Notes under the pieces: model-generated | Told to the model about the DNA's origin: nothing | The model's database searches: none | What the model saw: only the letters and a program-made list of their open reading frames with translations | Made by a program: the position numbers and the translations under genes | Virus record (IMG/VR): IMGVR_UViG_3300042558_004148 | Coordinates: 1-64,000 of that record | DNA length: 64,000 bases | Direction: 5' to 3' (one strand) | DNA from: a virus | Shown: positions 843-39,098 of the stretch, piece by piece | How positions within the stretch are numbered: the first letter of the stretch is position 1 | How the letters are laid out: each line of letters opens with the position of its first letter

Positions 843-3800
843 GGCGTAGATGGAATATCATCAGGTCAAATATATTTTTTCAATGAAAGTATTAATTCGG
901 ACGTTTCAGGTTACAAAGAATTAAGTTTAAATCCAACATCTACGGGTCAAGTAACGGTAACTACAAATTTAACAGGTAGTCAAACTGGTGCTTTAGTTCA
1001 AGATTTTATGACACCTGAATTAGGATTTTCAATAATACCTGGTGGTGTACAAAGATTTAAGTTATATTATTTACTACCTGCGGTAAACGCTGATGTTGAA
1101 GGGTATGTTGAAATCCAATTGGCTGATTCATCGGGGTCTTTAATGGGACCTACAATAACTTCTAATGTTAGTGCATTGCCTTATGTTGACCCAACTAATC
1201 CGGGATTACTTGAGGTTGATATAGTATTACCTACAACATCAATATCCACAACTGATAGAATGGCGATAAGACTTTATCTTAATAATTTAGATTCGACAAG
1301 TCGTAGTGTTGTATTTTATACTGAAGGTAATGCTAACTATTCATATATAATAACATCAGTTGGTCAAATCGCTGGTACATCAGGAACTTCAGGTACTAAC
1401 GGATCATCGGGATCAAACGGAACTTCAGGTACTAACGGTACTGACGGAACATCGGGAACTAATGGAACTTCAGGTACTAACGGTACTAATGGAACATCAG
1501 GTACTAACGGAACTAATGGAACTTCAGGTACTAACGGAACTAGTGGAACGGATGGTACGTCAGGAACTAATGGTACGTCAGGTACAAACGGAACCAATGG
1601 AACATCAGGAACCAATGGAACATCAGGAACCAATGGAACATCAGGAACAAACGGAACCAATGGTACCTCAGGTACTGACGGAACTTCAGGGACTGATGGA
1701 GGTAATTTAACAGCATCTAATTACGTTGCTAAAGGAGTTAAAGGAGGTACCATTCAAACAATAACAAATGGAAGTGACCAAGTTGTAACATTTGTTGATG
1801 AGTTTGACCCTAATGGTTGGATAACATCCAATAAATTCCAACCAAACATTGAAGGGTATTATATTATTCAAGTTTCGGTATGGTGGTATCCTGCGTCAAC
1901 AGTATCAGGGCAAAATAATATCCAACTTAGAAAAAATGGTAGTACACAAGTTGCGATTCAACAATTTCCACTTGTTACTACTGAAGGGTACGGTCAAGAA
2001 ATTGATATTATAGTATATTTTAATGGTTCTACTGATTATATCGAGGTTACTGCTTACACCTCTAATCCAACATCGCAAGACATACACGGTGAGAGTTCAG
2101 GTACTTGGATTACCGGATCATTAGTTGTTGGTGGCGGAACTTCAGGTACTGATGGAACTTCAGGTACTAATGGAACCAACGGAACATCAGGAACCAATGG
2201 AACCAATGGAACCAATGGTACTTCAGGTACTGACGGAACTTCAGGAACCAATGGAACATCAGGTACTAACGGAACATCAGGTACTAATGGATCCTCAGGA
2301 ACCAATGGAACATCAGGTACTAACGGTACTAACGGAACCTCAGGTACTAATGGATCCTCAGGAACCAATGGAACATCGGGTACTAACGGTACTGACGGAA
2401 CATCAGGTACTAACGGAACCTCAGGTACTAATGGATCCTCAGGTACTAACGGTACTGACGGAACATCAGGAGCCAATGGAACTTCAGGTACTAACGGTAC
2501 TAACGGAACCTCAGGTACTAACGGAACATCAGGTACTAACGGAACATCAGGAACTAACGGAACATCGGGTACTAACGGTACCAATGGAACATCAGGTACT
2601 AATGGATCCTCAGGTACTAACGGAACATCAGGAACCAATGGAACATCAGGTACTAACGGTACTAATGGAACATCAGGTACTAATGGAACATCAGGAACCA
2701 ATGGAACATCAGGAACCAATGGTACTGACGGAACATCAGGAACCAATGGAACATCAGGTACTAATGGATCCTCAGGTACTAACGGTACTAATGGAACATC
2801 AGGTACTAATGGAACATCAGGAACTAATGGAACCAACGGAACATCAGGTACTAATGGATCCTCAGGAACCAATGGAACATCAGGTACTAACGGTACTAAT
2901 GGAACATCTGGTACTAATGGATCCTCAGGAACCAATGGAACATCAGGTACTAACGGTACTAATGGAACATCTGGTACTAATGGATCCTCAGGAACCAATG
3001 GATCCTCAGGAACCAATGGAACATCAGGTACTAATGGAACCAACGGAACATCGGGTACTAATGGATCCTCAGGAACTAATGGAACATCAGGTACTAATGG
3101 AACCAACGGAACATCGGGTACTAATGGATCCTCAGGAACTAATGGAACATCAGGTACTAACGGTACTAATGGAACATCAGGAACCAACGGAACTAATGGA
3201 ACTTCAGGTACTAATGGAACTTCAGGTACTAATGGAACTTCAGGAACCAATGGAACTTCAGGAACTAACGGAACCAATGGAACTTCAGGAACCAATGGAA
3301 CATCAGGTACTAATGGAACTTCAGGAACCAATGGAACCAATGGAACTTCAGGTACTAACGGAACTTCAGGAACTAATGGAACCTCAGGAACCAACGGAAC
3401 TAATGGAACTTCAGGAACCAACGGAACTAATGGAACTTCAGGAACCAATGGAACTTCAGGAACCAATGGAACTAATGGAACCTCGGGTACTAACGGAACT
3501 TCGGGAACCAATGGAACCAATGGAACTTCAGGTACTAACGGAACTTCGGGAACCAATGGAACCAATGGAACTTCAGGTACTAACGGAACTTCAGGAACTA
3601 ATGGAACCTCAGGAACCAACGGAACTAATGGAACTTCAGGAACCAACGGAACCAATGGAACTTCAGGTGCTAACGGAACTTCAGGTACTAACGGTACTAA
3701 TGGATCTTCAGGTACTAATGGAACATCGGGTGTAAGCGGATTAAACGGTACTAATGGAACATCAGGTACTAATGGTACTAACGGAACATCGGGTACTAAC

Positions 3801-5582
3801 GGAACATCGGGTACTAACGGAACATCGGGTACTAACGGAACTAATGGAACTTCAGGAACTAATGGGACATCAGGTACTAACGGTACTAATGGAACTTCAG
3901 GAACTAATGGGACATCAGGTACTAACGGTACTAATGGAACTTCAGGAACCAATGGGACATCAGGTACTAATGGAACTTCAGGTACTAATGGAACTTCAGG
4001 TACTAATGGAACTTCAGGTACTAATGGAACATCAGGTATCAATGGTGTAGATGGTGCATCTGGAACATCGGGAACTAATGGAACTAATGGAACTTCAGGT
4101 ACTAACGGTAGTCCAGGTAGTCCAGGTAGCCCAGGAACATCTGGTACTAACGGTACTAACGGAACCTCAGGTACTAATGGAACTTCAGGTACTAACGGTA
4201 GTCCAGGTAGTCCAGGTAGCCCAGGAACATCAGGTACTAATGGTACTTCAGGTACTAGTAGTGGTGGTGCAGCTGCAGTTATTGTATTAGGTGGCGGTAT
4301 TTGTTCATCAATTAGATGTGGTGCGAATAACCAGGCAACTGCAAATTACAGTGCAGCCCTAAGCGGTAGATGCAATTCTTCAGGAGCTGCTTTTTCAGTA
4401 ATCAGTGGAGGTTGCTATAATCGAACAACTAACCTATCCTGTAATTCAGTAATCGGTGGAGGCCTTGTTAACTATATTAGCTCCTGTTATTCAACAATTG
4501 GTGGTGGTTGTCTTAACAGAGTTTGTATTCCAAGAGCTACCATTTCGGGAGGGTTATGTAACCTTATAACTGGTGCTTGCTCAACTATTGGTGGTGGATT
4601 TGATAATTCCATAGCTAGTCGTAGGGCAACTATCGGTGGAGGTAATACCAATAGTGCTGCAGGTGATTCAGATCTTGCAACAATTGGTGGTGGATGTGGA
4701 AATGAGATAGGTAGTTGTGGTATAGCTGCTGTGATTTCAGGAGGATATCAAAATTCCGTGGACGCTGGTTATTCAGCAATCGGAGGGGGAGCTTCAAATC
4801 AGATTGGTTCTGCTAGCCATAAATTTATCGGAGGAGGAAAGGGCAACTTTGTAACTAAAAACACAGGATGCTCCTCAGTTGTTGGAGGACAGGATAATGC
4901 CATTGATGGTGATGCCATAAGATCATTTATTGGAGGTGGATATGGAAATATTATCACTGGTTATGCTTGTCTTAGTTCGATCGCTGGTGGAAGGCAGAAT
5001 GCAATATATCAGGGTGCTTGCCATTCTTTTATCGGGGGCGGAAGATATCATAAAATTCGAAGTGGTTCATGTTATAGCTCCATAGGAGGTGGTTTTAATA
5101 ATGATACAGCAGGTTGCTATAATGTGCATATGTTAGGAAGTAATCTTACTGCTAATCAAAATAACGCAACATTTGTCCAATATATTGTTAAAACTGGTGG
5201 TGGTACTTTTAGTATTGACCACCCAAACCCTAAATTAAGTGATGAATTGAGATTAAATCACTCTTTTGTTGAATCACCAACAGCAGGGGATAATATTTAT
5301 AGATTTAATATTGTAGTTGTTAACGGGGAAGCAATAATTGACTTACCAGATTATTTCAAATATCTAAATAAAGACGCTCAAGTTTGGATAACACCTAAAA
5401 ATGGATTTGGAATTGCTTATGGTGTTATAGACGACACGTATTCAAAGATAACAATTAAGGCAAATCTTGATATAGAATATGATGTACTTGTTATAGGTAC
5501 AAGGAAAGATAAGAATACTAAATTCTGGAAAGGCGCTGAAACACCACAACCCAAAAGAACTGAAACCCCGCAATCAGAATAA
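1..5582 (+). CDS. Giant collagen-like tail fibre / adhesin with YadA-type head repeats (5' end outside window)
   Basis: The frame that ends at the stop 5580-5582 is open without interruption back to base 3, so the gene starts upstream of the window and at least 1859 codons are present; the ATG at 1008 is internal. Order of parts (residues from base 3): collagen-like Gly-X-Y block rich in GTS/GTD (1-280); a beta-rich globular domain (about 281-457); a second Gly-X-Y block (458-567); a C1q/jelly-roll-like domain (568-711); a long GTN/GTS Gly-X-Y block ending in GSP triplets (712-1422); about 17 'IGGGxxN' beta-roll repeats with many cysteines (1423-1707); and a C-terminal domain with 'FSIDHP', 'HSFVESP' and 'LPDYF' motifs known from bacterial surface proteins. 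Probably a trimeric host-binding fibre. It directly precedes the sulfation and glycosylation genes, which may modify it. Confidence 0.88.
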   Translation, partial: SGTDGTSGTDGTSGTSGTDGTSGTSGTDGTSGTSGTDGTSGTDGTSGTSGTDGTSGTSGTDGTSGTSGTDGTSGTSGTDGTSGTDGTSGTDGTSGTSGTDGTSGTSGTDGTSGTNGTSGTSGTDGTSGTSGTDGTSGTSGTDGTSGTSGTDGTSGTDGTSGTDGTSGTSGTNGTSGTSGTDGTSGTDGTSGTSGTDGTSGTDGTSGTDGTSGTDGTSGTDGTSGTDGTSGTDGTSGTDGTSGTDGTSGTNGTSGTDGTNGTSGTNGSSGTNGTSGTAGTSGVDGISSGQIYFFNESINSDVSGYKELSLNPTSTGQVTVTTNLTGSQTGALVQDFMTPELGFSIIPGGVQRFKLYYLLPAVNADVEGYVEIQLADSSGSLMGPTITSNVSALPYVDPTNPGLLEVDIVLPTTSISTTDRMAIRLYLNNLDSTSRSVVFYTEGNANYSYIITSVGQIAGTSGTSGTNGSSGSNGTSGTNGTDGTSGTNGTSGTNGTNGTSGTNGTNGTSGTNGTSGTDGTSGTNGTSGTNGTNGTSGTNGTSGTNGTSGTNGTNGTSGTDGTSGTDGGNLTASNYVAKGVKGGTIQTITNGSDQVVTFVDEFDPNGWITSNKFQPNIEGYYIIQVSVWWYPASTVSGQNNIQLRKNGSTQVAIQQFPLVTTEGYGQEIDIIVYFNGSTDYIEVTAYTSNPTSQDIHGESSGTWITGSLVVGGGTSGTDGTSGTNGTNGTSGTNGTNGTNGTSGTDGTSGTNGTSGTNGTSGTNGSSGTNGTSGTNGTNGTSGTNGSSGTNGTSGTNGTDGTSGTNGTSGTNGSSGTNGTDGTSGANGTSGTNGTNGTSGTNGTSGTNGTSGTNGTSGTNGTNGTSGTNGSSGTNGTSGTNGTSGTNGTNGTSGTNGTSGTNGTSGTNGTDGTSGTNGTSGTNGSSGTNGTNGTSGTNGTSGTNGTNGTSGTNGSSGTNGTSGTNGTNGTSGTNGSSGTNGTSGTNGTNGTSGTNGSSGTNGSSGTNGTSGTNGTNGTSGTNGSSGTNGTSGTNGTNGTSGTNGSSGTNGTSGTNGTNGTSGTNGTNGTSGTNGTSGTNGTSGTNGTSGTNGTNGTSGTNGTSGTNGTSGTNGTNGTSGTNGTSGTNGTSGTNGTNGTSGTNGTNGTSGTNGTSGTNGTNGTSGTNGTSGTNGTNGTSGTNGTSGTNGTNGTSGTNGTSGTNGTSGTNGTNGTSGTNGTNGTSGANGTSGTNGTNGSSGTNGTSGVSGLNGTNGTSGTNGTNGTSGTNGTSGTNGTSGTNGTNGTSGTNGTSGTNGTNGTSGTNGTSGTNGTNGTSGTNGTSGTNGTSGTNGTSGTNGTSGTNGTSGINGVDGASGTSGTNGTNGTSGTNGSPGSPGSPGTSGTNGTNGTSGTNGTSGTNGSPGSPGSPGTSGTNGTSGTSSGGAAAVIVLGGGICSSIRCGANNQATANYSAALSGRCNSSGAAFSVISGGCYNRTTNLSCNSVIGGGLVNYISSCYSTIGGGCLNRVCIPRATISGGLCNLITGACSTIGGGFDNSIASRRATIGGGNTNSAAGDSDLATIGGGCGNEIGSCGIAAVISGGYQNSVDAGYSAIGGGASNQIGSASHKFIGGGKGNFVTKNTGCSSVVGGQDNAIDGDAIRSFIGGGYGNIITGYACLSSIAGGRQNAIYQGACHSFIGGGRYHKIRSGSCYSSIGGGFNNDTAGCYNVHMLGSNLTANQNNATFVQYIVKTGGGTFSIDHPNPKLSDELRLNHSFVESPTAGDNIYRFNIVVVNGEAIIDLPDYFKYLNKDAQVWITPKNGFGIAYGVIDDTYSKITIKANLDIEYDVLVIGTRKDKNTKFWKGAETPQPKRTETPQSE
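1374..1703 (+). repeat. Collagen-like Gly-X-Y coding block 2
   Basis: About 110 residues of GTS/GTN/GTD triplets join the first globular domain to the C1q-like domain of the fibre. Triplet register is kept throughout. Confidence 0.88.
2136..4268 (+). repeat. Collagen-like Gly-X-Y coding block 3 (Asn-rich)
   Basis: About 710 residues of nearly uninterrupted Gly-Thr-Ser and Gly-Thr-Asn triplets. A single short interruption (GVSGLNG) lies near 3730. Two copies of a GSPGSPGSPG element lie near 4110 and 4200, the only prolines in the stalk. Almost every Asn is in an N-G-T or N-G-S context. Confidence 0.9.
4290..5120 (+). repeat. YadA-head-like beta-roll repeats with a cysteine ladder
   Basis: Tandem units of 14-18 residues with the core S-x-I-G-G-G-x-x-N-x-I, as in the left-handed beta-roll of YadA-type trimeric adhesin heads. 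Seventeen cysteines lie in about 270 residues, mostly just before the S-x-I core or at the x-x-N position. Confidence 0.8.
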
Positions 5583-5593
5583 ATAATTTGAAA

Positions 5594-5647
5594 TTTTTTT
5601 CATCAATCGCAGTATAATAATAAAAACATCTCGATTGATGAAAAAAA
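5594..5647. promoter_or_regulatory. 16-bp perfect inverted repeat enclosing a TATAAT box and the sulfotransferase start codon
   Basis: Arms TTTTTTTCATCAATCG (5594-5609) and its exact reverse complement (5632-5647) enclose a 22-base loop holding TATAAT (5613-5618). A TTGAAA lies at 5588-5593, 19 bases upstream of it. The ATG at 5638 is in the right arm, so the folded RNA would hide the start codon. It could end the fibre transcript, control translation of the next gene, or carry a host-type promoter; the sequence alone does not decide. Confidence 0.6.
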
Positions 5648-6456
5648 TAATATTCAACTCATCATTACCTAGATCTGGATCAACACTTTGGCAAAATATA
5701 ATTGCACAAAATCCTGATTTCTATTGCACTCCCACTTCGGGACTTGCTGACATGGTGCTTTCCTCCAAGAACGCTTATAATAATTCGCAAGCTGTTTTAG
5801 CTCAGGATCCGGAGGTCATGAAGAAAGCTTTCATAGGATATTGTATGGCAGGAATTCAGGGATATTTTAATGACATAACGGACAAACCATTTGTACTCGA
5901 AAAAAGTAGGGAATGGGGAGTAAATTACGGACTTCTTAATATGCTCCAGCACGAACCCAAGGTTGTCTGTATGGTTAGGGATCTTAGATCCGTATATTCA
6001 TCAATGGAGAAGAATTTTAGAAAAAACCCACATCGCGAGAATCATGTGCAGAATGTTCCGGAATTGGTCGGTACAACTCTCAGAAAAAGAATAGATATTT
6101 GGGCTGATGGTGTACCTGTTGGTGTTTCTGTTGATAGATTGAGAGATATAATAGATCAGGGAATAGATAAAAATATACTTTTTATTAGATACGAGGACCT
6201 TATGAGCGATCCAGAATCAGAGGTTAAAAGATTCTACGACTATATAGGGATTGACTATTATCCAGGACATAATTTTAAAACAATCGAGCAGGTAACACAT
6301 GAAAATGATTTAATTCATGGAATATACGGTGATCATAAATTAAGAACCGAATTTAAAAGACTACCTGATGATTATGAGGAGATATTAGGATTTGAGCTTT
6401 CTCAGGCAATCAAGAATACCTATGGATGGTTCTATGATTATTTTGAATATGTGTAA
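5638..6456 (+). CDS. PAPS-dependent sulfotransferase
   Basis: Predicted to move a sulfuryl group from PAPS to a hydroxyl or amine of a sugar or protein. The 5'-phosphosulfate loop is LPRSGSTLW near the N-terminus and the 3'-phosphate-binding strand is VCMVRDLRSVYSSM around residue 117. A late 'FIRYEDLMSDPE' stretch also fits the family. At 272 residues it is normal for a cytosolic bacterial or phage sulfotransferase. I chose ATG 5638 over the TTG directly before it. The next gene encodes an APS kinase that would make its donor. The acceptor is not visible; the giant fibre just upstream and the glycans built by the downstream glycosyltransferases are the obvious candidates. The start codon lies in a hairpin arm. 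Confidence 0.85.
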   Translation: MKKIIFNSSLPRSGSTLWQNIIAQNPDFYCTPTSGLADMVLSSKNAYNNSQAVLAQDPEVMKKAFIGYCMAGIQGYFNDITDKPFVLEKSREWGVNYGLLNMLQHEPKVVCMVRDLRSVYSSMEKNFRKNPHRENHVQNVPELVGTTLRKRIDIWADGVPVGVSVDRLRDIIDQGIDKNILFIRYEDLMSDPESEVKRFYDYIGIDYYPGHNFKTIEQVTHENDLIHGIYGDHKLRTEFKRLPDDYEEILGFELSQAIKNTYGWFYDYFEYV

Positions 6457-6485
6457 TAAATAATCGATAATTAATTTTTATAATA

Positions 6486-6935
6486 ATGGCAATTTATATA
6501 CTAACCGGTCAACCTCATTCAGGAAAAACAACCCTCGCTAATCATTTAAAAAATTCTTTGGATAAATCTTTCGTTATAGATGGTGACGATCTGAGGGAAA
6601 TACTGAATAATAAGGATTATTCTGAAGCGGGAAGAAGAAAGAACATAGAGACAGCTCATTCGATAGCTAAATACTTATCTAGGCAGGACGTTAATAACAA
6701 TATAATAATATCATTGGTTAGCCCGTATAAAGATCTTAGAGACAGTCTAAAATGCGAAAATGGAGCTGTCGAATTTTATATACATACTTCTGAAATAAGG
6801 GGAAGAGAATCTTTTCATGTAGCAGAATATCAAAAACCTACTGAAGATTTTACTGATATTGACACTACTGGAATATCAGAAACTGAATCACTAAAACAAA
6901 TATTATGGAAAATTGGTCAAAAAAAGTCCATGTAA
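6486..6935 (+). CDS. cysC: Adenylylsulfate (APS) kinase
   Basis: Phosphorylates APS to PAPS, the sulfate donor of sulfotransferases. P-loop GQPHSGKT lies at residues 8-15, and DGDDLR near 33 matches the DGDxxR signature. An 'AGRRKNIETAH' helix matches the family's D/R-x-x-N-I region, and 'SLVSPY' matches the ISPY strand. At 149 residues it is shorter than the usual 170-200, with a reduced C-terminal lid that keeps 'DFTDIDTT'. It follows the sulfotransferase by 29 bases and overlaps the next gene by 31 bases, so the three are probably translated together. Confidence 0.82.
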   Translation: MAIYILTGQPHSGKTTLANHLKNSLDKSFVIDGDDLREILNNKDYSEAGRRKNIETAHSIAKYLSRQDVNNNIIISLVSPYKDLRDSLKCENGAVEFYIHTSEIRGRESFHVAEYQKPTEDFTDIDTTGISETESLKQILWKIGQKKSM

Positions 6936-7309
6936 AATCATCACTGCAGCCTAAAGATAGTCAATATGCTATGTTTATTGGTAGATGGCAACCACTTCAT
7001 CCAGGTCACAAAGCTATGTTTCAACAAGCTATAAACGATGGTAAGAAGGTATTAATTGCAATCAGAGATATTGAGCCAGATGAAAAAAATCCTTGGACTC
7101 CCAACGAAGTTATGCTTAATATACATTCCGAGATTAGAGATCTAGTTAGTGAAAGGCTAGCAAAGATCATAATAATTCCAGATATATGCTCAGTTGAATT
7201 TGGTAGAGGTGTTGGTTACGATATAATCGAACATATCCCACCAACTGAAATAGCCAATATATCAGCAACTGCGGTTAGAGAGGAATTAAGGAAAGAAGGA
7301 AAATTATAA
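6905..7309 (+). CDS. Small HxGH-type nucleotidyltransferase
   Basis: Member of the cytidylyltransferase-like / NMNAT / ATP-sulfurylase superfamily: 'FIGRWQPLHPGHKAMF' holds the HxGH signature and 'ISATAVREEL' near the C-terminus is the ISxTxxR motif. It would transfer AMP or CMP from a nucleoside triphosphate to a phosphate or sulfate acceptor. Its place between APS kinase and DUF2061 makes a role in sulfate activation attractive, but it is far shorter (134 aa) than known ATP sulfurylases. NMN adenylyltransferase or nucleotide-sugar synthesis are equally open. The ATG at 6905 overlaps cysC; an alternative ATG at 6974 would start just before the HxGH strand. Confidence 0.7.
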   Translation: MENWSKKVHVKSSLQPKDSQYAMFIGRWQPLHPGHKAMFQQAINDGKKVLIAIRDIEPDEKNPWTPNEVMLNIHSEIRDLVSERLAKIIIIPDICSVEFGRGVGYDIIEHIPPTEIANISATAVREELRKEGKL

Positions 7310-7563
7310 TGGAAACTAATCAGGAAATTCTAAAAAAGTCAGATAGAAAAGAAAATAGATCTAATATGATAAGACACATATTAAAAACACTTTCTTATAG
7401 AATATTAGGCACGATGACAACTGTAATTACTGCATATATGTTAGGAGCTTCGGTAGAATTAGCATCATTACTAGGTATGGGAGAGATTGTTTTCAAGCCT
7501 ATTATATATTTTTTGCATGAGAGAATTTGGTATAAATTCATCAGGATAGGATCAAAAAAATAA
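7309..7563 (+). CDS. DUF2061 small membrane protein
   Basis: Eighty-four residues with two hydrophobic segments and the DUF2061 pattern: 'KTLSYRILGT' near residue 25, then an 'FKPIIYFLHERIWYKF' C-terminal part with the HER-x-W signature. From general knowledge of the family, DUF2061 genes in bacteria often sit beside cysC and cysDN sulfate-activation genes, which agrees with the location here. The molecular function is unknown; it may be a membrane partner of sulfate activation. Its start overlaps the stop of the preceding gene by one base. Confidence 0.75.
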   Translation: METNQEILKKSDRKENRSNMIRHILKTLSYRILGTMTTVITAYMLGASVELASLLGMGEIVFKPIIYFLHERIWYKFIRIGSKK

Positions 7564-7567
7564 GCAC

Positions 7568-8443
7568 ATGAATATAATATTGGAGGTTTCTGGTGGATTG
7601 GGTAAAAGCTTTATGTCCACCGCTGTAGTAAAAGCTTTACGTAAACAGTATACTAGAGATAACATAATAGTGGTAACATCATATCCCGATGTTTTTAAAG
7701 GTAATAATAATGTTAATAGAATTATTACCCACGCAAATGCGGGTCCAATTTATAGGGATTTTATTAACAACAAGGAAGCTAAAGTATTTATTACCGATCC
7801 ATACACAACCTCCGATTTTATAACGGAAAAAAAACATCTTATCGAGATATGGTGCGATTTGTGTGGTGTCCCTTATGATGGGGAACTGCCTGAATTATTT
7901 ATAAGTAAATCTGAAAGACAATATTATGAGCAGTTTTATAAATTAGATAAGCCTATAATGGCTATACATCCGAATGGTGGAAGCATAGAGCAACCTCTAA
8001 AATATAGCTGGACCCGAGATATTCCGCAACCAATAATTGAGAATATTATAGAGCACTATAAAGATGATTATTCCGTGGTACATATAAGAAGGGAAGATCA
8101 ATTTCAATATGATAACACAATTTCTGCATTGGATAATTTTAGAAGCATTGCAATTATGCTGACCCTTTCAGAAAAAAGACTTCTTATAGACTCATCTGCG
8201 ATGCATATAGCATCTTCCCTGGGTTTACCGTCAACAGTTGCCTGGATCGGAACAAATCCCAAAGTTTTTGGCTATAATATACATGATAATATAATTGCTA
8301 ATCCACATACGGAAAAGCACGATATATCGAATAATTACTATCAGAAATATATGTTATTTGAGGATATCAGTAGAATACCATATTCCGATATGAATGACAT
8401 TTTTAATATTAGCGATATTATAGATAGCATAAATAAACAATAA
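7568..8443 (+). CDS. GT9-like (heptosyltransferase-type) glycosyltransferase
   Basis: The N-terminal 'EVSGGLGKSFMSTAVVKAL' is the phage/bacterial GT9 Rossmann start (G-G-x-G-K/D). The C-terminal half has the donor-binding pattern 'LLIDSSAMHIASSLGLPSTVAW' near residue 208. GT-B enzymes of this family mostly use ADP-heptose. At 291 residues it is slightly short. It lies four bases after the DUF2061 gene and starts a run of sugar-transfer genes. The acceptor is unknown. A heptose kinase homologue encoded at 39127 makes ADP-heptose a plausible donor. Confidence 0.65.
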   Translation: MNIILEVSGGLGKSFMSTAVVKALRKQYTRDNIIVVTSYPDVFKGNNNVNRIITHANAGPIYRDFINNKEAKVFITDPYTTSDFITEKKHLIEIWCDLCGVPYDGELPELFISKSERQYYEQFYKLDKPIMAIHPNGGSIEQPLKYSWTRDIPQPIIENIIEHYKDDYSVVHIRREDQFQYDNTISALDNFRSIAIMLTLSEKRLLIDSSAMHIASSLGLPSTVAWIGTNPKVFGYNIHDNIIANPHTEKHDISNNYYQKYMLFEDISRIPYSDMNDIFNISDIIDSINKQ

Positions 8444-8454
8444 AAATAAAAAAT

Positions 8455-8730
8455 ATGGAAAATGAATTAAAATTACCTGAAGATCTAATTTTAGAAATTC
8501 AAAATCTGAAAGAGGTTTTGATGGATAATATAATTAAAGTGGGTAGATTAAGTGTACAGAAATCCTTTTACGAGAAGGACCTTTCCGCTATAAACAACGA
8601 ATTAGAATCCTTACATAACGAAGCTTCTGACATATATGCTAGGGAGGAAGCTTTGCAGGAGAAGGTAGTCGGTAAATACGGTAAAGGTAAACTCGATTTT
8701 GAGACTGGATTATTTACGAAGGATATGTAA
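8455..8730 (+). CDS. Small coiled-coil protein, unknown function
   Basis: Ninety-one charged residues predicted to be almost entirely helical with heptad-like leucines ('NLKEVLMDNIIKV', 'ELESLHNEASDIY'). No catalytic motif, signal peptide or membrane segment. It sits between two GT9-like genes, 11 bases after the first and 6 before the second, and is certainly co-transcribed with them. A scaffold or chaperone role for the enzymes is possible but not shown. Confidence 0.6.
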   Translation: MENELKLPEDLILEIQNLKEVLMDNIIKVGRLSVQKSFYEKDLSAINNELESLHNEASDIYAREEALQEKVVGKYGKGKLDFETGLFTKDM

Positions 8731-8736
8731 TTCCTT

Positions 8737-9669
8737 ATGAAGAAACTCTGTATAGATATAAGCGAGGCTAGAGCTATTGGCGATACATTATGTGTATCGC
8801 CAGTTTTGCGTAAACTATATTACTCATATGGTAGAAAAATATCTATAATAACTCATCATACAGATATATTTAGAAATAATCCATATGTTGATTCTCTATA
8901 TCTTCCTGGTGATCTTGATTTGGATGATGATTTCGAAATATTTAGAACTTTCGATGTAAACTATAAATCCGATGGCATATGCAATAAGCATAATACTATT
9001 GACATTAGGCAGTTCCATGCAATTAGCCTTGGATTCATGTTAAATCAGGAGGAACTTACTTTGGATTTTTTCCCTTCTGATTTTGAAGAAATACAGGGAC
9101 TTCCCGATAGATACGTTCTTATACATCCCGTACAAAACTGGGAATCCAGAACATGGGATAGAGAAAAATGGATTCTATTAGTCAGAGCTTTGAATGCGGG
9201 CGGAATAAGTGTGGTTTCTGTCGGAAAGGAGTCATCCGAAATGGGTGGATCCAATGTTCAAAAGCCAACCTTTAATTTTGATATTGAATTGGGTATGAAT
9301 TTACAGAACAAAACATCATTATCTCAGACGTGGTGGCTGATTGAAAAAAGTGAATGCTTCGTTACTATGGATTCTGGTCTTCTACATTTAGCAGGTACTA
9401 CCGATTCTGAAATAATTCAATTAGGCAGTTCAATAGATAATAAGTTTAGAGCACCATATAGAAAGGGATCTCAGGAATATAAATACCATTATGTTTCTGG
9501 TGGATGTAATTTGAAATGTGCGTCTGATATAAAATATGGTGTAAGAGAATGGAACACGATACAGGGAATACCTTCGTTGGTCGGATGTCTGGAGGGAAAG
9601 AAAACTTTCGAATGCCATCCAAGCGTAATGAGTGTTTATAATAAAATAATGTCCACTGTTAATAAATAA
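8737..9669 (+). CDS. GT9-like glycosyltransferase
   Basis: A GT-B fold protein of 310 residues. 'SEARAIGDTLCVSPVLRKLY' near residue 9 is the GT9 nucleotide-sugar loop (G-D-x-x-x-x-x-P). 'HPVQNWESRTWDREKW' near residue 130 resembles the central HP...W...K/R-W motif of heptosyltransferase-like proteins. 'FVTMDSGLLHLAGTT' near residue 209 is the C-terminal donor site. The last 60 residues hold several cysteines. It probably adds one sugar to the same glycan as its neighbours; donor and acceptor are unknown. Confidence 0.68.
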   Translation: MKKLCIDISEARAIGDTLCVSPVLRKLYYSYGRKISIITHHTDIFRNNPYVDSLYLPGDLDLDDDFEIFRTFDVNYKSDGICNKHNTIDIRQFHAISLGFMLNQEELTLDFFPSDFEEIQGLPDRYVLIHPVQNWESRTWDREKWILLVRALNAGGISVVSVGKESSEMGGSNVQKPTFNFDIELGMNLQNKTSLSQTWWLIEKSECFVTMDSGLLHLAGTTDSEIIQLGSSIDNKFRAPYRKGSQEYKYHYVSGGCNLKCASDIKYGVREWNTIQGIPSLVGCLEGKKTFECHPSVMSVYNKIMSTVNK

Positions 9670-9677
9670 GTATCCGG

Positions 9678-10607
9678 ATGGGTAATAAAATAATATTGAT
9701 TAGTTCATATTGCGATAATGAGGAAAAGATTAGTGTATTAGAATCTAATATAAGAACACTAAAAAATCTCGGTCTGGATGTTATGCTTAATAGTCCTATT
9801 GATATACCAAATAGGGTCTCCTCATTATGCGATTATTATATAAGAACTAAAGATAATCCGATTATCGACTGGCCAATTAAATCGGTATCGGTTTGGTCTG
9901 AATATCGATGTAAAGGGAAGAAAATAATTATGAATAGATGTCTACCTGATTACGGATGGGCAAATATCCATCAGGTAAAAAAATTATCAGAATATGCATT
10001 AACGTATGATTATGAATATTTCTACCATATAATATATGATATAAAAATTGACGATACCGTTTTGAGTGGTATACTATCCGATGCGGAATGTAATTTCTAT
10101 CATTTCCATGAGCATTGGGTAAGTCTACATTTTATGCTATTTGATAGGAAAAACTTAGTATCATTTATATCTGGATTAAATATAAATGAATATATTGAAT
10201 TTTGTGGAATTGCTGAAACCTGGCTAAAAAACTACCTGGAGAATTCAGATTTGCCGTATAAAGTGGATGATTGTTATGTTGATGACCATATACTTTTTCA
10301 TAATGGAGTAGATCTTTTTAATTATTCGGGATTTTCTGAATTTAGGTATTTCATAGCTAAAAATGCTATGGAAAATAATTCTATTAAAATTTATTTCTAT
10401 GGTGTTAAAAATCATATTGATTTAAAAATCCACCTTAATTCAACCACAAAAATATACGAAATAGCTGATAGAGATATAATAGATCTTGAATTATCTCGCG
10501 ATGACATGATATCTGTCATAATTGAATATAACGGATTAACCGAAGATATAACTGAAAAAATAAGATCCATAACACACAATAATATTAATTTATATGAAGA
10601 GAATTAA
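9678..10607 (+). CDS. Probable phage glycosyltransferase-like protein
   Basis: The N-terminus 'IILISSYCDNEEKISVLESN' followed by 'NLGLDVMLNSPIDIP' and a 'DYYIRTKDNP' stretch matches a phage/bacterial sugar-transfer family in which a strand, 'eK...L...i..L...g', is followed by 'SH.p.P'. I recognise this from general pattern memory, not from a catalytic motif. A 'DDHILFHNG' stretch in the second half may be the metal/acceptor site. It overlaps the following fusion gene by 14 bases, which fits joint translation and function. Confidence 0.5.
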   Translation: MGNKIILISSYCDNEEKISVLESNIRTLKNLGLDVMLNSPIDIPNRVSSLCDYYIRTKDNPIIDWPIKSVSVWSEYRCKGKKIIMNRCLPDYGWANIHQVKKLSEYALTYDYEYFYHIIYDIKIDDTVLSGILSDAECNFYHFHEHWVSLHFMLFDRKNLVSFISGLNINEYIEFCGIAETWLKNYLENSDLPYKVDDCYVDDHILFHNGVDLFNYSGFSEFRYFIAKNAMENNSIKIYFYGVKNHIDLKIHLNSTTKIYEIADRDIIDLELSRDDMISVIIEYNGLTEDITEKIRSITHNNINLYEEN

Positions 10608-13473
10608 ACTATTATATTTAACCCCACATCTATCAACCGGTGGAATGCCTCAGTTCGCACTGAAGAGAATACAGAAACTTAATGAATATAGTGATGAGAT
10701 AGAAATCTTTGTTGTCGAGTACTCCAAATTTAGTGATACCTATGTTGTCCAAAGAAATTCAATACTTGAAATGATTGACAGTGATCATTTCTTTACACTG
10801 GGGGATACATCCGATACTAGAAGAAAATATGAGATAATTCAGATAATTAAGGATAATGATATAGATTTAGTTCATTCAGAGGAAATATTAGAGGGATTTG
10901 AAAGTTTTAATAAGATCCCTGCTGATTTAATTAACATGTTATATTCCGATGATAGAAGCTGGAGAATGATTGAAACCTGTCATAATATTTGGTTTGATCC
11001 GAAAGAATTTAAAAAATTAAAACCTGATGCATATTCATTAATTTCACCACATCATACGGAAAAAACATTCGCATCTGAGTCCTCATATAAGGAGCTTCAT
11101 CTATATCCATATGAGAATAAAACAGATATAAGAATAAAAAATAGGAAGAATTCTATCAAAAAACTGGGATTTGATAGAAATAAGAAAAACGTTCTCAATG
11201 TTGGATTATGGACTAGTGGAAAGAATCAGGGAGAGGGAATAGAAATTGCTAGATTCATAGAATCATCTAGTCCTGATGTATTTTTTCATTTTGTAGGTAA
11301 TTTAGCTCCAAATTTCGAAAATTACTGGGGAGATATAACAAAGAATCTACCAAGCAATGTTAAGATATGGGGGGAGCGTGACGATGTTGATGAATTCATG
11401 ATAGCATGTGACGCCATGATGTTTAATTCTACCTGGGAATGCAATCCTTTAGTTATAAGAGAAGCCATAGGATATGGCATGAAGATATTAGCCAGAAATC
11501 TACCGCAATATTATAACATGTATGATGGATACATCACTCCGATAGAGGGTGATATAAAAGAAATATCGGGACGACTTATTGATATGCTTGAATCTGATAT
11601 TGAATATCAGGTACCTGATGATTCTAATTTTGGTAGGACATTATTGGATTTCTATAGGAAGGTAATGGAGATAGAAATAACACCACAGCCTAAAATAGAA
11701 AATGACTACGAGTTTATACAACATTTTGTTGGTCAGCCCTATTTCGAATTAAGAGGCAGTAGTAGTAATAAATTTAAGGTGGAATTCTCTGATGGTGGAA
11801 AAATTATACATTCGGATCTCCTAAATTTTAATAGCTGGTCGAAATTAAACAGAAAATATTATACCAAATGGGACACAACGGTATATGAAAATGGTGAAAT
11901 AATATATAAGAATTCATTAGATCTTAGGGACAGAAGAGTTTATATTGCATTTGGATCTAAATCTCTAGGTGATACTCTTGCGTGGATACCTTACATGGAG
12001 GAATTTAGAAAAATTCATAATTGCGAATTGATAGTTTCTACGTTCATTAATCACTTATTCATTGAACAGTATCCCAATATTACTTTTGTCAATCCAGGGG
12101 AAACTGTAAATAATTTATATGCCCAATATAATATTGGATGGTATTATGACAGTAACGGAAATATTGATTATAATAAGGTTCCAAACGACTTTAGAAAACA
12201 ACCTTTACAGAAGACAGCCACTGATATACTCGGTCTCGAATATAAGGAAATAAAGCCTCGTTTAAATTTACCTAACGTGAAAAAAAAGAAAAAAGTTGGG
12301 ATAGGATTTCATTCAACTGCTCAGGCCAAATACTGGAACAATCCTAACGGATGGCAAGAGGTAATTGATCATCTTAATTCGATTGGTTATGAATGCATGA
12401 TATATTCCAGAGAGGGAGACGGATATATGAATAATGCATATCCAAAAAATGTTGATGTGTTTAAAGGCGGAAATCTACAGGATGTAATAAATGATCTGTG
12501 TGAGTGTGAATTTTTCATTGGCTTGGGCTCTGGATTAAGTTGGCTAGCTTGGTCATGTAAATTACCAATCATTTTGATTTCTGGATTTAGTGAAAGATTT
12601 TCTGAAACTTCATCCGACACATATAGAATTATTAACGAGGATGTTTGCCACGGATGCTTTAATTCGGAAATGCTAGATGCTGGAGATTGGAATTGGTGTC
12701 CATTACATAAAAATTCGGAGAGAATGTTTGAGTGTACAAAACAAATTAATTCTAATATGGTTACCAAGGAAATAGATAGATTAATTGGGGAAAATCACAT
12801 ACCAAATTTTGATTGGGGTTGGATGAACGATGGTAGTTCTAATGGTAATTATCACAAGAAACTTATGTATAATGAGATATTTGAGCAAAAAATATATGAG
12901 AGATTCTTTGAAGTTGATCATTCCGATATTGTATTGGATGTTGGTTCTAGCGTCGGCCCATTCACATATTCGATATTAAAGAAAAATCCTAAACATGTAT
13001 TTTGTATAGAACCTAGTGAGAGTGAATTTACTACACTAGTTAAAAATACATTAGGTAATCCGGTTACTCATATAAATAAGGGATTATCAGATATAAATGG
13101 AGTTATCGAATATGATCAATTATTTGGAGGAGAAACACATATGGAATCCATTACCTTTGATAAGCTCGTTAAATTATACGGTCTGAATAGGATAGATTTC
13201 ATGAAAACTGATTGTGAGGGCGGTGAATATGAGATTTTTAAGAAAGATAATCTTGACTTTATTAAAAAAAATATAAAGAAGATTGCCGGCGAATGGCATT
13301 TAATGAGTAAAGAAAATAAAGAAAAATTCAGGGATTTCCGGGATAATATATTAATAGAGTTCGATCGATATGAGGTATTATCATTAGATGGTATTGATAT
13401 AAAATGGGATCTATGGAACGAACATTTTATAGAGTATTATAATGAGGTCCTTATATACATAGATAATAGATAG
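10594..13473 (+). CDS. Three-domain fusion: GT4 glycosyltransferase, BAHT/TibC-like heptosyltransferase, FkbM methyltransferase
   Basis: A 959-residue fusion. Residues 1-370 form a GT4-type GT-B enzyme: 'STGGMPQF' near 11, 'NVGLWTSGKNQGEG' near 203, and the E-x-x-G donor motif in 'NPLVIREAIGYG'. Residues about 375-735 match bacterial autotransporter heptosyltransferases such as TibC: 'STAQAKYWNNPNGWQEV', then a four-cysteine finger C685-x2-C688-x13-C702-x11-C714 with 'DWNWCP' and 'FECT'. TibC uses such a finger to bind iron, and the enzyme heptosylates adhesin repeats. Residues about 760-955 are an FkbM SAM-dependent methyltransferase: 'LDVGSSVGPFT' near 780 and 'DFMKTDCEGGEYE'. Inference: it adds two sugars and caps or methylates the glycan, plausibly on virion fibres. 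Confidence 0.82.
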   Translation: MKRIKLLYLTPHLSTGGMPQFALKRIQKLNEYSDEIEIFVVEYSKFSDTYVVQRNSILEMIDSDHFFTLGDTSDTRRKYEIIQIIKDNDIDLVHSEEILEGFESFNKIPADLINMLYSDDRSWRMIETCHNIWFDPKEFKKLKPDAYSLISPHHTEKTFASESSYKELHLYPYENKTDIRIKNRKNSIKKLGFDRNKKNVLNVGLWTSGKNQGEGIEIARFIESSSPDVFFHFVGNLAPNFENYWGDITKNLPSNVKIWGERDDVDEFMIACDAMMFNSTWECNPLVIREAIGYGMKILARNLPQYYNMYDGYITPIEGDIKEISGRLIDMLESDIEYQVPDDSNFGRTLLDFYRKVMEIEITPQPKIENDYEFIQHFVGQPYFELRGSSSNKFKVEFSDGGKIIHSDLLNFNSWSKLNRKYYTKWDTTVYENGEIIYKNSLDLRDRRVYIAFGSKSLGDTLAWIPYMEEFRKIHNCELIVSTFINHLFIEQYPNITFVNPGETVNNLYAQYNIGWYYDSNGNIDYNKVPNDFRKQPLQKTATDILGLEYKEIKPRLNLPNVKKKKKVGIGFHSTAQAKYWNNPNGWQEVIDHLNSIGYECMIYSREGDGYMNNAYPKNVDVFKGGNLQDVINDLCECEFFIGLGSGLSWLAWSCKLPIILISGFSERFSETSSDTYRIINEDVCHGCFNSEMLDAGDWNWCPLHKNSERMFECTKQINSNMVTKEIDRLIGENHIPNFDWGWMNDGSSNGNYHKKLMYNEIFEQKIYERFFEVDHSDIVLDVGSSVGPFTYSILKKNPKHVFCIEPSESEFTTLVKNTLGNPVTHINKGLSDINGVIEYDQLFGGETHMESITFDKLVKLYGLNRIDFMKTDCEGGEYEIFKKDNLDFIKKNIKKIAGEWHLMSKENKEKFRDFRDNILIEFDRYEVLSLDGIDIKWDLWNEHFIEYYNEVLIYIDNR

Positions 13474-35878: not shown

Positions 35879-37477
35879 ATGGCAGGTTTTGTAGATAATA
35901 ATGATCCTTCTCAAACTCCGGTAATACAGAGAATTAGAGATTCTGTAAGAAAAATTAGTTCATTTGGTATGAAATACGATGACATGGTCATCCGTAATTC
36001 ACAGGCTGTCGGTGTTACTGAGGCTGCTTTTCTTAATAAGAATAAGTCCAACGTTGAGGATGAAAGCATGCTATGGACTTTAGCGAAGCAGGATATATCA
36101 TCCAGACAATTCATAGGATATTTTGACAAGGATTATAAAGGAAAAAGAGACTATCTTAGAAAATTCTCATTAAACCCTGAAGTTGAATGGGTTCTTGATA
36201 CCATATGTGACGAAGCAATATCTTACGATCCATCAAATTTCTTTGCATATCCTGATTTCATAGATCTTAGCGACGTTAATGAAAAAATCAAGGATGATTT
36301 ATATGACTCGTATAAAAAACTTTACGATGTTTGGGGATTTTCTGATGACATAACAGCTTGGCAATATTTTAGACAATTTATAGTAGATGGATTTCTCTCA
36401 TTTGAAATAATATATGATAATAAAGGTGAAAATATAATCGGATTTAAGGAACTAGATCCAATTACACTTATACCTAGTGTTGAGAAACAAATAGACGGTA
36501 GCTATCTTAGTACATGGACGCAATATCCTCAGGATCCCAAAAGAAAAAGAGTATTATATGATCCGCAGATTATATACATTTCATATGCAAAGGGAAATAG
36601 CATATCAAGAGTTAGCTACATAGAGAGATTAATAAGACCTTATAATATTCTAAGAATTATAGAATATACTAGGGTTATATGGTCAGTCATGAATGCATCG
36701 TTTAAACTTAAGATGACCATTCCAATAGGAAGCAAATCTCAGCAGAAGGGTATGCAAACTCTGGGTGAACTGATGAGCATCTATAAGGAGGATATCCAAT
36801 TGAATGATGATAGTGGCGAGCTTACAGTCGACGGTAGACCTAAAATACAGTTTTATAAAAACTATTTGATGCCTTCCGGTGTTAACGGAACTCCAACCAT
36901 AGAGCCTATAAACACTGAGGGACCAAATCTTAATGATCCACAACCTTTATCATATTTCTTTGACAAATATATTTTAGAATCTAAAGTTCCTCCCTCCAGA
37001 TTTCATAATCCAGACGGCGGAACAACTTCACCATATTCGAATGGTGCGGAAGGGCTTGATAAGGAAGAAATTAGATTTGCCAAATTTATAGATAGACTTA
37101 GATCAGTATTCCAGGAGATATTATTAAAACCTTTATGGATACAAATGGTTAAAAAGCATAAATCACTTGACGATGATTTTATGTTTAAGAGTCAGCTTGG
37201 ATTGGATTATGTTTCCGATAACCCATTCAAGTTAAATCAGGAGATGGATTTAATAAATAAAAGGAAGGAAGCAGTTGTCGCAATGACTGGATTAATGGGT
37301 GATGAGGAAAAACCATATTTTTCTAGTGCATTTCTTATAGAGACTTTTCTTGGAATATCCAAACAGGATATTGATGCAAATAAAGAAGCATTGGAAAGAA
37401 AAGAAAAAGAGAAGAAAAAAGAGGAAGGTAAAAAAGAAGAGGGCGGAGAAGAGGAAGCTCCGGAAGTAACACTATAA
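35879..37477 (+). CDS. Portal protein (gp20-like), copy 1
   Basis: A 532-residue protein, as T4 gp20 (524). Typical segments: 'RDYLRKFSLNPEVEWVLDTI' with 'CDEAI', 'FIVDGFLSFEIIYD', 'GFKELDPITL', 'RVSYIERLIRPYNILRIIEY', and the clip/crown part 'RFAKFIDRLRSVFQEILLKP'. It should form the dodecameric packaging vertex. The C-terminal tail is Lys/Glu-rich and ends in 'EEAPEVTL', identical to the end of the next gene. No exact late box precedes it. Confidence 0.9.
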   Translation: MAGFVDNNDPSQTPVIQRIRDSVRKISSFGMKYDDMVIRNSQAVGVTEAAFLNKNKSNVEDESMLWTLAKQDISSRQFIGYFDKDYKGKRDYLRKFSLNPEVEWVLDTICDEAISYDPSNFFAYPDFIDLSDVNEKIKDDLYDSYKKLYDVWGFSDDITAWQYFRQFIVDGFLSFEIIYDNKGENIIGFKELDPITLIPSVEKQIDGSYLSTWTQYPQDPKRKRVLYDPQIIYISYAKGNSISRVSYIERLIRPYNILRIIEYTRVIWSVMNASFKLKMTIPIGSKSQQKGMQTLGELMSIYKEDIQLNDDSGELTVDGRPKIQFYKNYLMPSGVNGTPTIEPINTEGPNLNDPQPLSYFFDKYILESKVPPSRFHNPDGGTTSPYSNGAEGLDKEEIRFAKFIDRLRSVFQEILLKPLWIQMVKKHKSLDDDFMFKSQLGLDYVSDNPFKLNQEMDLINKRKEAVVAMTGLMGDEEKPYFSSAFLIETFLGISKQDIDANKEALERKEKEKKKEEGKKEEGGEEEAPEVTL

Positions 37478-37481
37478 TAAG

Positions 37482-39098
37482 ATGGCAGGATTTTTAGACT
37501 TTTTAAAACCGAATCAATCAGCTTTAGGTAATATACTAAAGAATCTTGGAAACATATCAAAATTTGGTATGGAGTACGATGATATGGTTGTAAAAAATTC
37601 TCAGGCTATTGGTAAGACTGAGGGATTTTTCTATAATCAGGATGGTAATGGATTTACAGAAAATGATGCTTTCTATTGGACATCATCTTATCAGGACACT
37701 AAGGTAAGAAAATATATTGCATATTTTGACCGTGATTATATTGAGAAAAGAAATTATCTTAGAAAATTTTCACTTAATGGCGAAATAGAGTTCATATTAG
37801 ATACAATAACTGATGAAGCCATAGTATATGATGATAGAAATTATTTTGCTCAGCCTTCGTTCGTAAATCTGGATCTTAAGGATAAAGTAAAGGATAAGAT
37901 ATCAGAACATTATAATAAGATTTATAATGTATTTGGGTTTCAGAACACAATACTAGGATGGCAATATTTTAAGCAGTTTTTAATTGATGGATTTCTTGCA
38001 TTTGAAATAATATATGACAGTAAGGGAAAAAATGTGATAGGATTTAAAGAATTGGATCCAACTTCACTTCAGCCCATAGTCGAAAAGGTAGGGGAAGAGG
38101 AACATAAACAATTTTGGATACAATATCCAAAGAATCCTCAGATGACCAGGAAGTTGACCAACGAGCAGGTAATTTATATTTCTTATGCTAAAGGAAATAT
38201 GATAACTAGAGTTAGCTATGTTGAGAGATTAGTTAGATCATATAATATTCTTAGAATAATGGAAAATTCCAGAATTATATGGAACGTAATGAACTCGTCA
38301 TATAGATTAAAATTCATTATACCTATAGGTACCCAATCACAGCAAAAAGCAATGCAGAATCTTGGTCAATTAATGTCAAACTACAAGGAGGACATTAATA
38401 TCAATGATTCATCTGGTGAATTAACAATAAACGGTAAACCTAAAATTCAATTCTACAAGAATTATTTATTTCCCGAAAAGGATGGACAAAGTCCACAAAT
38501 AGAATCCCTTAATCCTAGTGGTCCTGATTTCAACGTAATGGAAAATGTGGTTTATTTTTTCAATAAGCTTAAAATGGATTCTAAGATACCCTACGCTAGA
38601 TTTGCGTCTAGAAACAGCACTCCTGGGAATTATCAGACAAGCATAGATCAATTGGAGAGAGATGAAATTAGATTCGAGAAGTTTCTGAGAAGACTTAGAT
38701 CAATTTTTCAGGAAATATTAACGAAGCCACTCTATATCCAGATGTGTCTGGATAATCCTGAATTGTCCAGAGATAAGAACTTTAAAGCAAATATAGGACT
38801 TAATTATAATAGGGATAGCGAATTTGAGGAAATGGTCGAGATGACCAATTACACAAAAAGAACCGAATTTATAAATGGTCTTGGCGAGCTCAAAGTTAAG
38901 ATAGGCGAGGAGGAGAAAGGATATTTTGATAAGAACTTTTTAATACAAAGATTCCTTGGTATGAATCCGGATCAAATAAGAATGAACGAGAAGTATAAGG
39001 AAGCTGAAGAAAAATTAGCTGAAAAAGCGGGAGGTGAAAAACCTGCTGAGGGTGAAGCCCCTGCTGAGGGAGAAGAAGCACCGGAAGTAACACTATAA
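37482..39098 (+). CDS. Portal protein (gp20-like), copy 2
   Basis: A 538-residue paralogue starting four bases after copy 1. It keeps 'FGMEYDDMVVKNSQAIG', 'RNYLRKFSLNGEIEFILDTI', 'RVSYVERLVRSYNILRIMEN', 'RFEKFLRRLRSIFQEILTKP' and the final 'EEAPEVTL', and is full length without disruption. The two differ throughout, so the duplication is old and both are probably used. Possible arrangements are a mixed ring, alternative rings, or one copy specialised for initiation of the prohead. Confidence 0.9.
   Translation: MAGFLDFLKPNQSALGNILKNLGNISKFGMEYDDMVVKNSQAIGKTEGFFYNQDGNGFTENDAFYWTSSYQDTKVRKYIAYFDRDYIEKRNYLRKFSLNGEIEFILDTITDEAIVYDDRNYFAQPSFVNLDLKDKVKDKISEHYNKIYNVFGFQNTILGWQYFKQFLIDGFLAFEIIYDSKGKNVIGFKELDPTSLQPIVEKVGEEEHKQFWIQYPKNPQMTRKLTNEQVIYISYAKGNMITRVSYVERLVRSYNILRIMENSRIIWNVMNSSYRLKFIIPIGTQSQQKAMQNLGQLMSNYKEDININDSSGELTINGKPKIQFYKNYLFPEKDGQSPQIESLNPSGPDFNVMENVVYFFNKLKMDSKIPYARFASRNSTPGNYQTSIDQLERDEIRFEKFLRRLRSIFQEILTKPLYIQMCLDNPELSRDKNFKANIGLNYNRDSEFEEMVEMTNYTKRTEFINGLGELKVKIGEEEKGYFDKNFLIQRFLGMNPDQIRMNEKYKEAEEKLAEKAGGEKPAEGEAPAEGEEAPEVTL

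Follow-up and report, generated by a model that had tools for sequence, protein, structure and literature searches.

A phage gene cassette predicted to encode a sulfation pathway, with a candidate compact ATP sulfurylase

The ATP sulfurylase of free-living hosts is commonly CysDN or Sat. In ATP sulfurylases, as described in passages of PMC3779200, the HXXH and SGTxxR motifs bind pyrophosphate, and a GRD loop helps to bind the sulfate and ribose of adenosine 5'-phosphosulfate (APS). Phage cysC is assigned to assimilatory sulfate reduction (passages of PMC10914622 and PMC9529941), and the function of phage sulfotransferases has been called unclear (in a passage of PMC10580990). In this work, we are analysing a 64,000-nucleotide stretch of DNA (the window), which is the opening 64 kb of a virus record with 373,485 bases (IMG/VR record IMGVR_UViG_3300042558_004148; record label G000), in which a cassette of four genes, carried by this giant phage and also by many other phages of aquatic origin, encodes a sulfotransferase (ST), an APS-kinase family protein (APSK), a nucleotidyltransferase (NT) and a small DUF2061 protein.

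We consider it probable, on the basis of sequence comparisons, that this cassette is a self-contained sulfation pathway with NT as a compact ATP sulfurylase. From the observed gene identities, conserved order, fusions and neighbours, and conserved residues, we infer the catalytic steps, the acceptor and the role of DUF2061 as follows. NT, which belongs to the HxGH superfamily and is neither Sat nor CysDN, would make APS from ATP and sulfate; APSK would phosphorylate APS to 3'-phosphoadenosine 5'-phosphosulfate (PAPS); and ST would transfer the sulfuryl group of PAPS onto an acceptor. The most likely acceptor is a sugar, of a phage fibre or of the host surface, that the neighbouring glycosyltransferases may build. 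DUF2061 would be a membrane partner of sulfate activation, perhaps with a part in membrane anchoring or in the entry of sulfate. With NT as an ATP sulfurylase, the cassette would therefore supply its own PAPS and constitute a complete path from sulfate via PAPS to the sulfated product. A first, sequence-only reading of the window had given no source of APS; the evidence now points to NT as the putative ATP sulfurylase.

The cassette and its conservation in viral loci

The four genes of the cassette are arranged as follows:

5638-6456, + strand: ST, sulfotransferase, 272 aa (ATG at 5638; the listed open reading frame (ORF) opens at TTG 5635)
6486-6935, + strand: APSK, APS-kinase family protein of the RGRE type, 149 aa
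6905-7309, + strand: NT, nucleotidyltransferase of the HxGH superfamily, 134 aa; candidate compact ATP sulfurylase
7309-7563, + strand: DUF2061, small protein, modelled as two long helices; probable membrane protein acting in sulfate activation

A gap of 29 nt separates ST from APSK, APSK and NT overlap by 31 nt, NT and DUF2061 by 1 nt, and the gene after DUF2061 begins at 7568. All four genes assigned to this place by the sequence-only reading were found as plus-strand ORFs with Pfam matches above the curated cut-offs. ST matches PF13469 (E 3.7e-16, 60.5 bits, cut-off 27) and PF00685 (E 2.8e-13); its nucleotide-binding motif is SLPRSGSTLW, with S.PR.GSTL kept at at least 97% across 47 aligned homologues, and we take PRxGST to be the 5' phosphosulfate-binding motif. 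APSK matches PF01583 (E 1.3e-12, 48.4 bits, cut-off 21.1), and the best matches of its profile in the Protein Data Bank (PDB) are APS kinases (8a8h, 9.3e-19). Invariant in 34 APSK sequences are G8, G13 and K14 of the P-loop, D32-G33-D34 (DGD), and R37, R50, N53 and P80, the last four of which presumably match the APS contacts of fungal APS kinase.

With NT as a bait, 476 stretches of viral contigs were found to encode relatives, the best 80 of which constitute the NT-found set; likewise, an APSK alignment yielded at least 402 confirmed stretches, 80 of which form the APSK-found set. The two sets are not independent, because contigs are common to both; gene presence in the loci was scored with profiles built from the family. 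The sequence-only reading had suggested a search for the four-gene order in other phages, and this order proved to be kept beyond what chance would give: all four genes are present in 61 of the 80 NT-found loci (the best 80 of 476), and in every one of these 61 they lie on one strand as ST-APSK-NT-DUF2061. The remaining NT-found loci contain APSK-NT-DUF2061 (11), NT-DUF2061 (5) or APSK-NT (3). APSK is present in 75 of the 80 and, in the other five, NT is located at most 312 bases from a contig end. Among the 80 APSK-found loci, NT was detected in 78, DUF2061 in 49 and ST in 26. The APSK and NT genes overlap in 65 of 75 NT-found and in 58 of 78 APSK-found pairs, and NT is the most conserved member of the cassette, with 60-70% identity to the NT of the window versus 37-66% for APSK. 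The core of the cassette is APSK-NT.

Among 50,697 phage records, no near DNA match to the 8.6-kb cassette region was found. Only three phage records with an APSK relative were found; the record LR756500 encodes an APS kinase of the canonical type, with no NT among the inspected ORFs of at least 70 aa, and a search of the phage records with DUF2061 returned a single weak match of 27% identity.

Other settings of the APSK-NT pair were also observed. In a second setting, a DNA methyltransferase gene comes after the pair, with neither the family ST nor DUF2061 in the stretch (L103, L105, L127, L145 and L169; L048, L050 and L054). In a third (L134 and L117), APSK-NT-DUF2061 lies near a carbamoyltransferase gene, as judged from a PHROG match in L134 and by eye in L117, and near oxygenase-like and sugar-enzyme-like genes. 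Genes in L117, L134 and L139 that seemed sulfotransferase-like by eye were rejected and not counted, because neither Pfam nor PHROGs gave a sulfotransferase match.

The nucleotidyltransferase, its fusions and the bacterial counterpart of the cassette

NT matches the HxGH nucleotidyltransferase superfamily (PF01467; E 4.5e-6, 27.3 bits, cut-off 21). The matches of its profile in the PDB are NadM-type nicotinamide mononucleotide (NMN) adenylyltransferases and cover residues ~21-94 only, also when a wider alignment is used. By VIA-align, an AlphaFold2 (AF2) model of NT (predicted local distance difference test (pLDDT) 84.9, predicted template modelling score (pTM) 0.74) is tied between phosphopantetheine adenylyltransferase (Z 9.9) and NMN adenylyltransferase (NMNAT; Z 9.5). 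In 21 chosen family members, G26, R27, Q29, H32, G34, H35, R54, N62, P63, P92, G100, R101, V103, G104, Y105 and R125 are invariant; this alignment omits a Microvirga fusion with a degenerate NT, whose inclusion would drop R101 and R125 from the invariants. R27, H32 and H35 align with R11, H16 and H19 of archaeal NMN adenylyltransferase, and R125 corresponds, by range arithmetic, to its R136; the ATP site, therefore, appears to be kept. R54 and a block of the form GR-VGY are not contained in two phage NadM proteins that were compared, nor is R54 in an NMNAT-like domain elsewhere in G000. The second half of NT does not align to NMN adenylyltransferases: the matches stop near residue 94, and the two phage NadM proteins align to the first half only. 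Upon sequence comparison, the motifs HxGH, GR[GDENA]VGY and S[AG]TxxR of NT follow the same order as in sulfurylases, with GRG, not GRD, in the window; the fusions of the Stenotrophomonas and Xanthomonas phages, as well as most haloarchaeal NT members, have GRD literally. Judged by its residues, the invariant GR-VGY block of NT resembles the sulfurylase GRD loop.

The kinase and NT are also found as one polypeptide. PHROG 10255 joins both in a phage protein, and such single proteins occur in the Stenotrophomonas phages DLP_6 and Bhz60 and the Xanthomonas phage AhaSv (loci L002, L003 and L213); in Bhz60 (above cut-off) and AhaSv (below cut-off), the second gene ahead of the fusion is a Sulfotransfer_4 gene. 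On plasmids, a tblastn search with NT returned ten records, nine haloarchaeal ones and one from Microvirga; the haloarchaeal matches show 40-43% identity to NT over 81-91% of the query. The haloarchaeal protein, annotated as cysC, is an APS kinase fused to NT, and in 8 of 8 inspected regions (of the nine), a sulfotransferase is annotated just upstream of the fusion, with at most one small ORF in between. In L214, the one haloarchaeal fusion on which these tests were made, the kinase part is canonical (PF01583 1.3e-44; TIGR00455 158.3 versus a cut-off of 138.7; PDB APS kinases from 5.9e-35). A YqcI/YcgG gene follows the haloarchaeal fusion in seven of the eight regions and lies upstream in the eighth (L214 10413-11156 and equivalents). 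The Microvirga lotononidis plasmid (L221 4617-5399 and 6797-8386) carries the kinase-NT fusion near a sulfotransferase and a CysN-DUF2061 fusion.

Among GTDB species, the sole NT relative found is contained in an APSK-NT of a draft Crocinitomicaceae genome (locus L094, genome G045), downstream of which lie an ABC transporter and two sulfotransferases, the latter at distances of ~2.5 and 3.3 kb. It was the one confirmed case out of 32 pattern matches in the bacterial NT search, in which distant relatives were missed because the patterns were exact short peptides. No further NT was found in 399 genomes of the order to which L094 belongs; a search for APSK in 395 genomes of its phylum returned only G045, with ten candidates scored per genome, so that misses are possible.

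Further evidence comes from DUF2061, which matches PF09834 (E 1.2e-15, 58.1 bits, cut-off 23.1) and, according to an AF2 model (pLDDT 86), forms helices 4-44 and 49-77. A sample of 120 genomes from the same order as that of L094 contained the family in 33 cases, and 30 loci were fetched. By regular expressions, CysD, CysH, CysC or CysQ motifs were detected beside DUF2061 in 29 of the 30 bacterial loci; for ten DUF2061 neighbours from eight loci Pfam agrees, and L201, counted as lacking such a neighbour, contains a CysQ-like sequence by eye. Moreover, DUF2061 occurs as CysN-DUF2061 in Microvirga and as DUF2061-APS kinase in L189. With these cysteine-pathway neighbours and fusions, the tie of DUF2061 to bacterial sulfate activation, which the sequence-only reading had put forward, is well founded.

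CysC was detected in 5 of the 30 bacterial loci by regular expression and APSK in 8 by profile; six of these eight APSK are of the phage RGRE type (E 1.1e-46 or better). Six bacterial loci show the order APSK(RGRE)-DUF2061-CysD-CysN on one strand; since PF01507 cannot split CysD from CysH, the motif together with the position served to identify CysD. The CysD of L204 and five of the six CysN were identified by motif alone; the other CysN, that of L205, has a confirming Pfam match. NT was found by profiles in none of the 30 loci. Therefore, one and the same pair of kinase and membrane protein is accompanied by CysDN in the bacteria and by NT in the phages. The RGRE-type APS kinase of the bacterial locus L205 carries a fused HAD domain (651-1457); the APSK of this locus gave no plasmid match.

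On balance, though with less assurance than for the cassette as a sulfation pathway, we favour the view that NT may be a third kind of ATP sulfurylase, i.e., a single domain of ~130 residues from the NMN/phosphopantetheine adenylyltransferase branch, which would serve sulfation, not assimilation, in phages, haloarchaea and a few bacteria, and would complete a phage pathway to which much of the phage cysC currently assigned to sulfate assimilation would belong.

Counter-evidence and competing explanations

Several observations weigh against the proposed role of NT and the cassette. Both by sequence and by fold, NT is matched best by NMN and phosphopantetheine adenylyltransferases; ATP sulfurylase as its nearest fold relative was not borne out, being absent among the sequence and fold matches listed, which excludes nothing, and Foldseek with the NT model gave no match at E <= 0.001. 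PF01747 (Sat) has no match in G000 and is above cut-off in none of 45 records, with matches under the cut-off in 14 of them; the CysD profile TIGR02039 has no match in 46 records including G000. The lack of Sat and CysD in the window's record would fit NT as the sulfurylase, but is expected of phages anyway. Also in favour of NT, G045 has neither a CysD nor a Sat match in a search of which CysN was not part; the missing CysD is weak evidence, because this is a draft metagenome genome. The NT of the Microvirga fusion is degenerate and lacks R101 and R125. The APSK of the window scores under the NCBIfam apsK equivalog cut-off (TIGR00455; 48 versus 138.7 bits) and is devoid of the canonical KGLYKKAR-type motif, in place of which RGRE-x-[FY]-H is found. 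The family ST was not seen in 54 of the 80 APSK-found loci. A whole-record search covered 33 of the 80 APSK-found records, five of which have ST in the locus already; of the other 28, two have a PF13469 gene, ~46 kb away, and in 26 none was found, including records of 212 kb and 119 kb, many of the records being fragments. Finally, a gene annotated as NADAR adjoins the fusion in the Stenotrophomonas phage Bhz60, and the window's phage encodes a NadV-like NAPRTase (at 237.2 kb).

Among the alternatives, the one that survives best, although we regard it as unlikely, is that APSK and ST act as proposed, while APS is provided by the ATP sulfurylase of the host and NT is another partner, e.g., an adenylyltransferase which regulates the pathway or primes the acceptor. 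This would agree with the closest known enzymes to NT not being sulfurylases and with the CysD matches obtained in 10 of 14 control genomes. However, NT is as constant in the cassette as APSK and exceeds it in conservation; furthermore, the archaeal APS kinase fusion and the swap with CysDN are hard to explain if NT acts on a different metabolite.

That NT is a NadM-like NMN adenylyltransferase making NAD, with the link to APSK arising from NAD or ADP-ribose chemistry, appears improbable. The weak NadM-family profile matches and the best PDB matches of NT speak for it, as do the NadV-like gene in G000, given which a second NMN adenylyltransferase is conceivable, and the NADAR gene beside the Bhz60 fusion. 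On the other hand, the NadM matches leave the second half of NT, including GR-VGY, without a counterpart, and NT scores far under the NMNAT equivalog cut-off (26.7 versus 181.2 for TIGR01527), being likewise below those of PRK05379 and PRK01153. Among 45 NT-bearing records, NadV is present in that of the window's phage only, whereas 40 of the 45 records around NT-found loci have a PF13469 gene. G000, which has two further HxGH genes besides NT, also encodes another NMNAT-like domain. This domain lies in the later part of a 693-aa protein at ~126.7 kb (L096 70-2151), the first part of which is RNA-ligase-like by eye.

Still less credible is the production by APSK-NT of a PAPS analogue with another anion, which ST would then transfer. 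APS-kinase relatives with altered substrates are known; for instance, a cytidine donor is phosphorylated by a CysC homologue when Campylobacter makes its capsule phosphoramidate. Moreover, the canonical C-terminal motif has been lost from the phage APSK. Yet the kinase domain of the haloarchaeal fusion is of the canonical APS-kinase type, the bacterial RGRE-type kinases and DUF2061 accompany CysD/CysN, and no further gene for donor synthesis was noticed in the cassette, no search having been aimed at one.

The usual understanding of phage cysC, which passages of PMC10914622 and PMC9529941 place with cysH under assimilatory sulfate reduction, would have the genes serve that process in the infected host and is the least plausible explanation, since a PAPS-consuming sulfotransferase heads the cassette in 61 of the 80 NT-found loci and no reductase gene was seen in the cassette, cysH not having been searched for across the records.

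Neighbouring genes, implications and comparison with known systems

The genes on either side of the cassette are relevant for the acceptor:

1008-5582, + strand: repeat-rich fibre-like protein, 1524 aa (ORF and translation), upstream of the cassette
7568-8443, + strand: GT9-like protein, probable sugar transferase and frequent companion of the cassette

The placing of the cassette between a giant fibre and glycosyltransferases by the sequence-only reading holds, with the fibre-like ORF 1008-5582 on one side and glycosyltransferase-like ORFs at 7568-13473 on the other. Its further notion of a compact donor-plus-transferase operon beside a fibre stands with respect to the Pfam families, key motifs and conserved order; the siting beside a fibre applies to 55 of 77 loci (the window and 76 others), but many APSK-NT pairs lie away from fibre genes. 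In this neighbour count, from which five near-copies of the window's phage in the NT-found set (L014-L018, with an NT identical to that of the window) are absent, a fibre-like cluster was found in the 55 loci, a number possibly inflated because single linkage was applied to repetitive proteins, and a GT9-like cluster in 52. The GT9-like protein of the window matches Pfam GT9 weakly (E 0.12); one relative reaches 0.0036, and two others have no match. Because of these fibre and glycosyltransferase neighbours, the acceptor is probably a sugar; it may be part of a fibre glycan, a host surface glycan or a small molecule, with the fibre-like protein 1008-5582 as a candidate carrier of the sulfated glycan.

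This fibre-like protein consists of repeats of the (GTNGTSG)n type and, closer to the C-terminus, has a region of IGGG-x-N type repeats, and the upstream ORF 13-849 is repetitive, too. At 10594-13473, a 959-aa protein combines a group-1 glycosyltransferase, a weak GT9 region and an FkbM methyltransferase. A 575-aa cluster, tail sheath by eye, is present in 36 of the 77 loci, and a cluster of small HAD-like proteins in 12, several times within the cassette (e.g., L066 3081-3428). The window contains tailed-phage genes for a terminase large subunit, a major head protein, a DNA ligase and, in a row, two portal-like proteins (35879-37477 and 37482-39098), both assigned to phrog_213.

In the open-access literature that was searched, no title was found on such a cassette or enzyme, most of the subscription literature being outside this scope; the word DUF2061 occurs in four of its papers, and in PMC11980604, on Halobacterium sulfotransferases, the terms PAPS, APS kinase and sulfurylase are absent according to a term search. 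A conserved cassette from sulfate to sulfated product would give phage cysC and phage sulfotransferases one common purpose. Should NT prove to be an ATP sulfurylase, there would be a third, minimal enzyme for a textbook step, which is now annotated as cysC, kinase, cytidyltransferase or hypothetical, and DUF2061 would be assigned to a pathway.

Phage sulfotransferases of cyanophages and marine viruses share 23-31% identity with ST over most of its length (10 phage records); annotated ones appear as single genes and, in the one annotated region inspected, that of S-SCSM1, neither APSK nor NT is annotated alongside. With NadM and archaeal NMN adenylyltransferase, NT has the GRxQPxHxGH and NP(F/W)T motifs and the fold in common, whereas its second half is unalignable and R54 and GR-VGY set it apart from the NadM proteins compared. 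Sat, which we take to be a member of the HxGH superfamily like NT, has an HxxH-type motif, a GRD-like loop and S[GA]TxxR in like order, but NT is far smaller. CysD/CysN, the fold of which is presumably unrelated to NT, is the companion of the same APSK type and DUF2061 in the six bacterial loci. Finally, the animal PAPSS, a fusion of APS kinase and ATP sulfurylase, is matched in logic and order by the haloarchaeal relative, with the APS kinase first and the adenylyltransferase second; in contrast to PAPSS, the adenylyltransferase part of the latter comprises ~120-130 aa and stays under the Sat cut-off, and the window has a separate gene for each part, the two genes overlapping.

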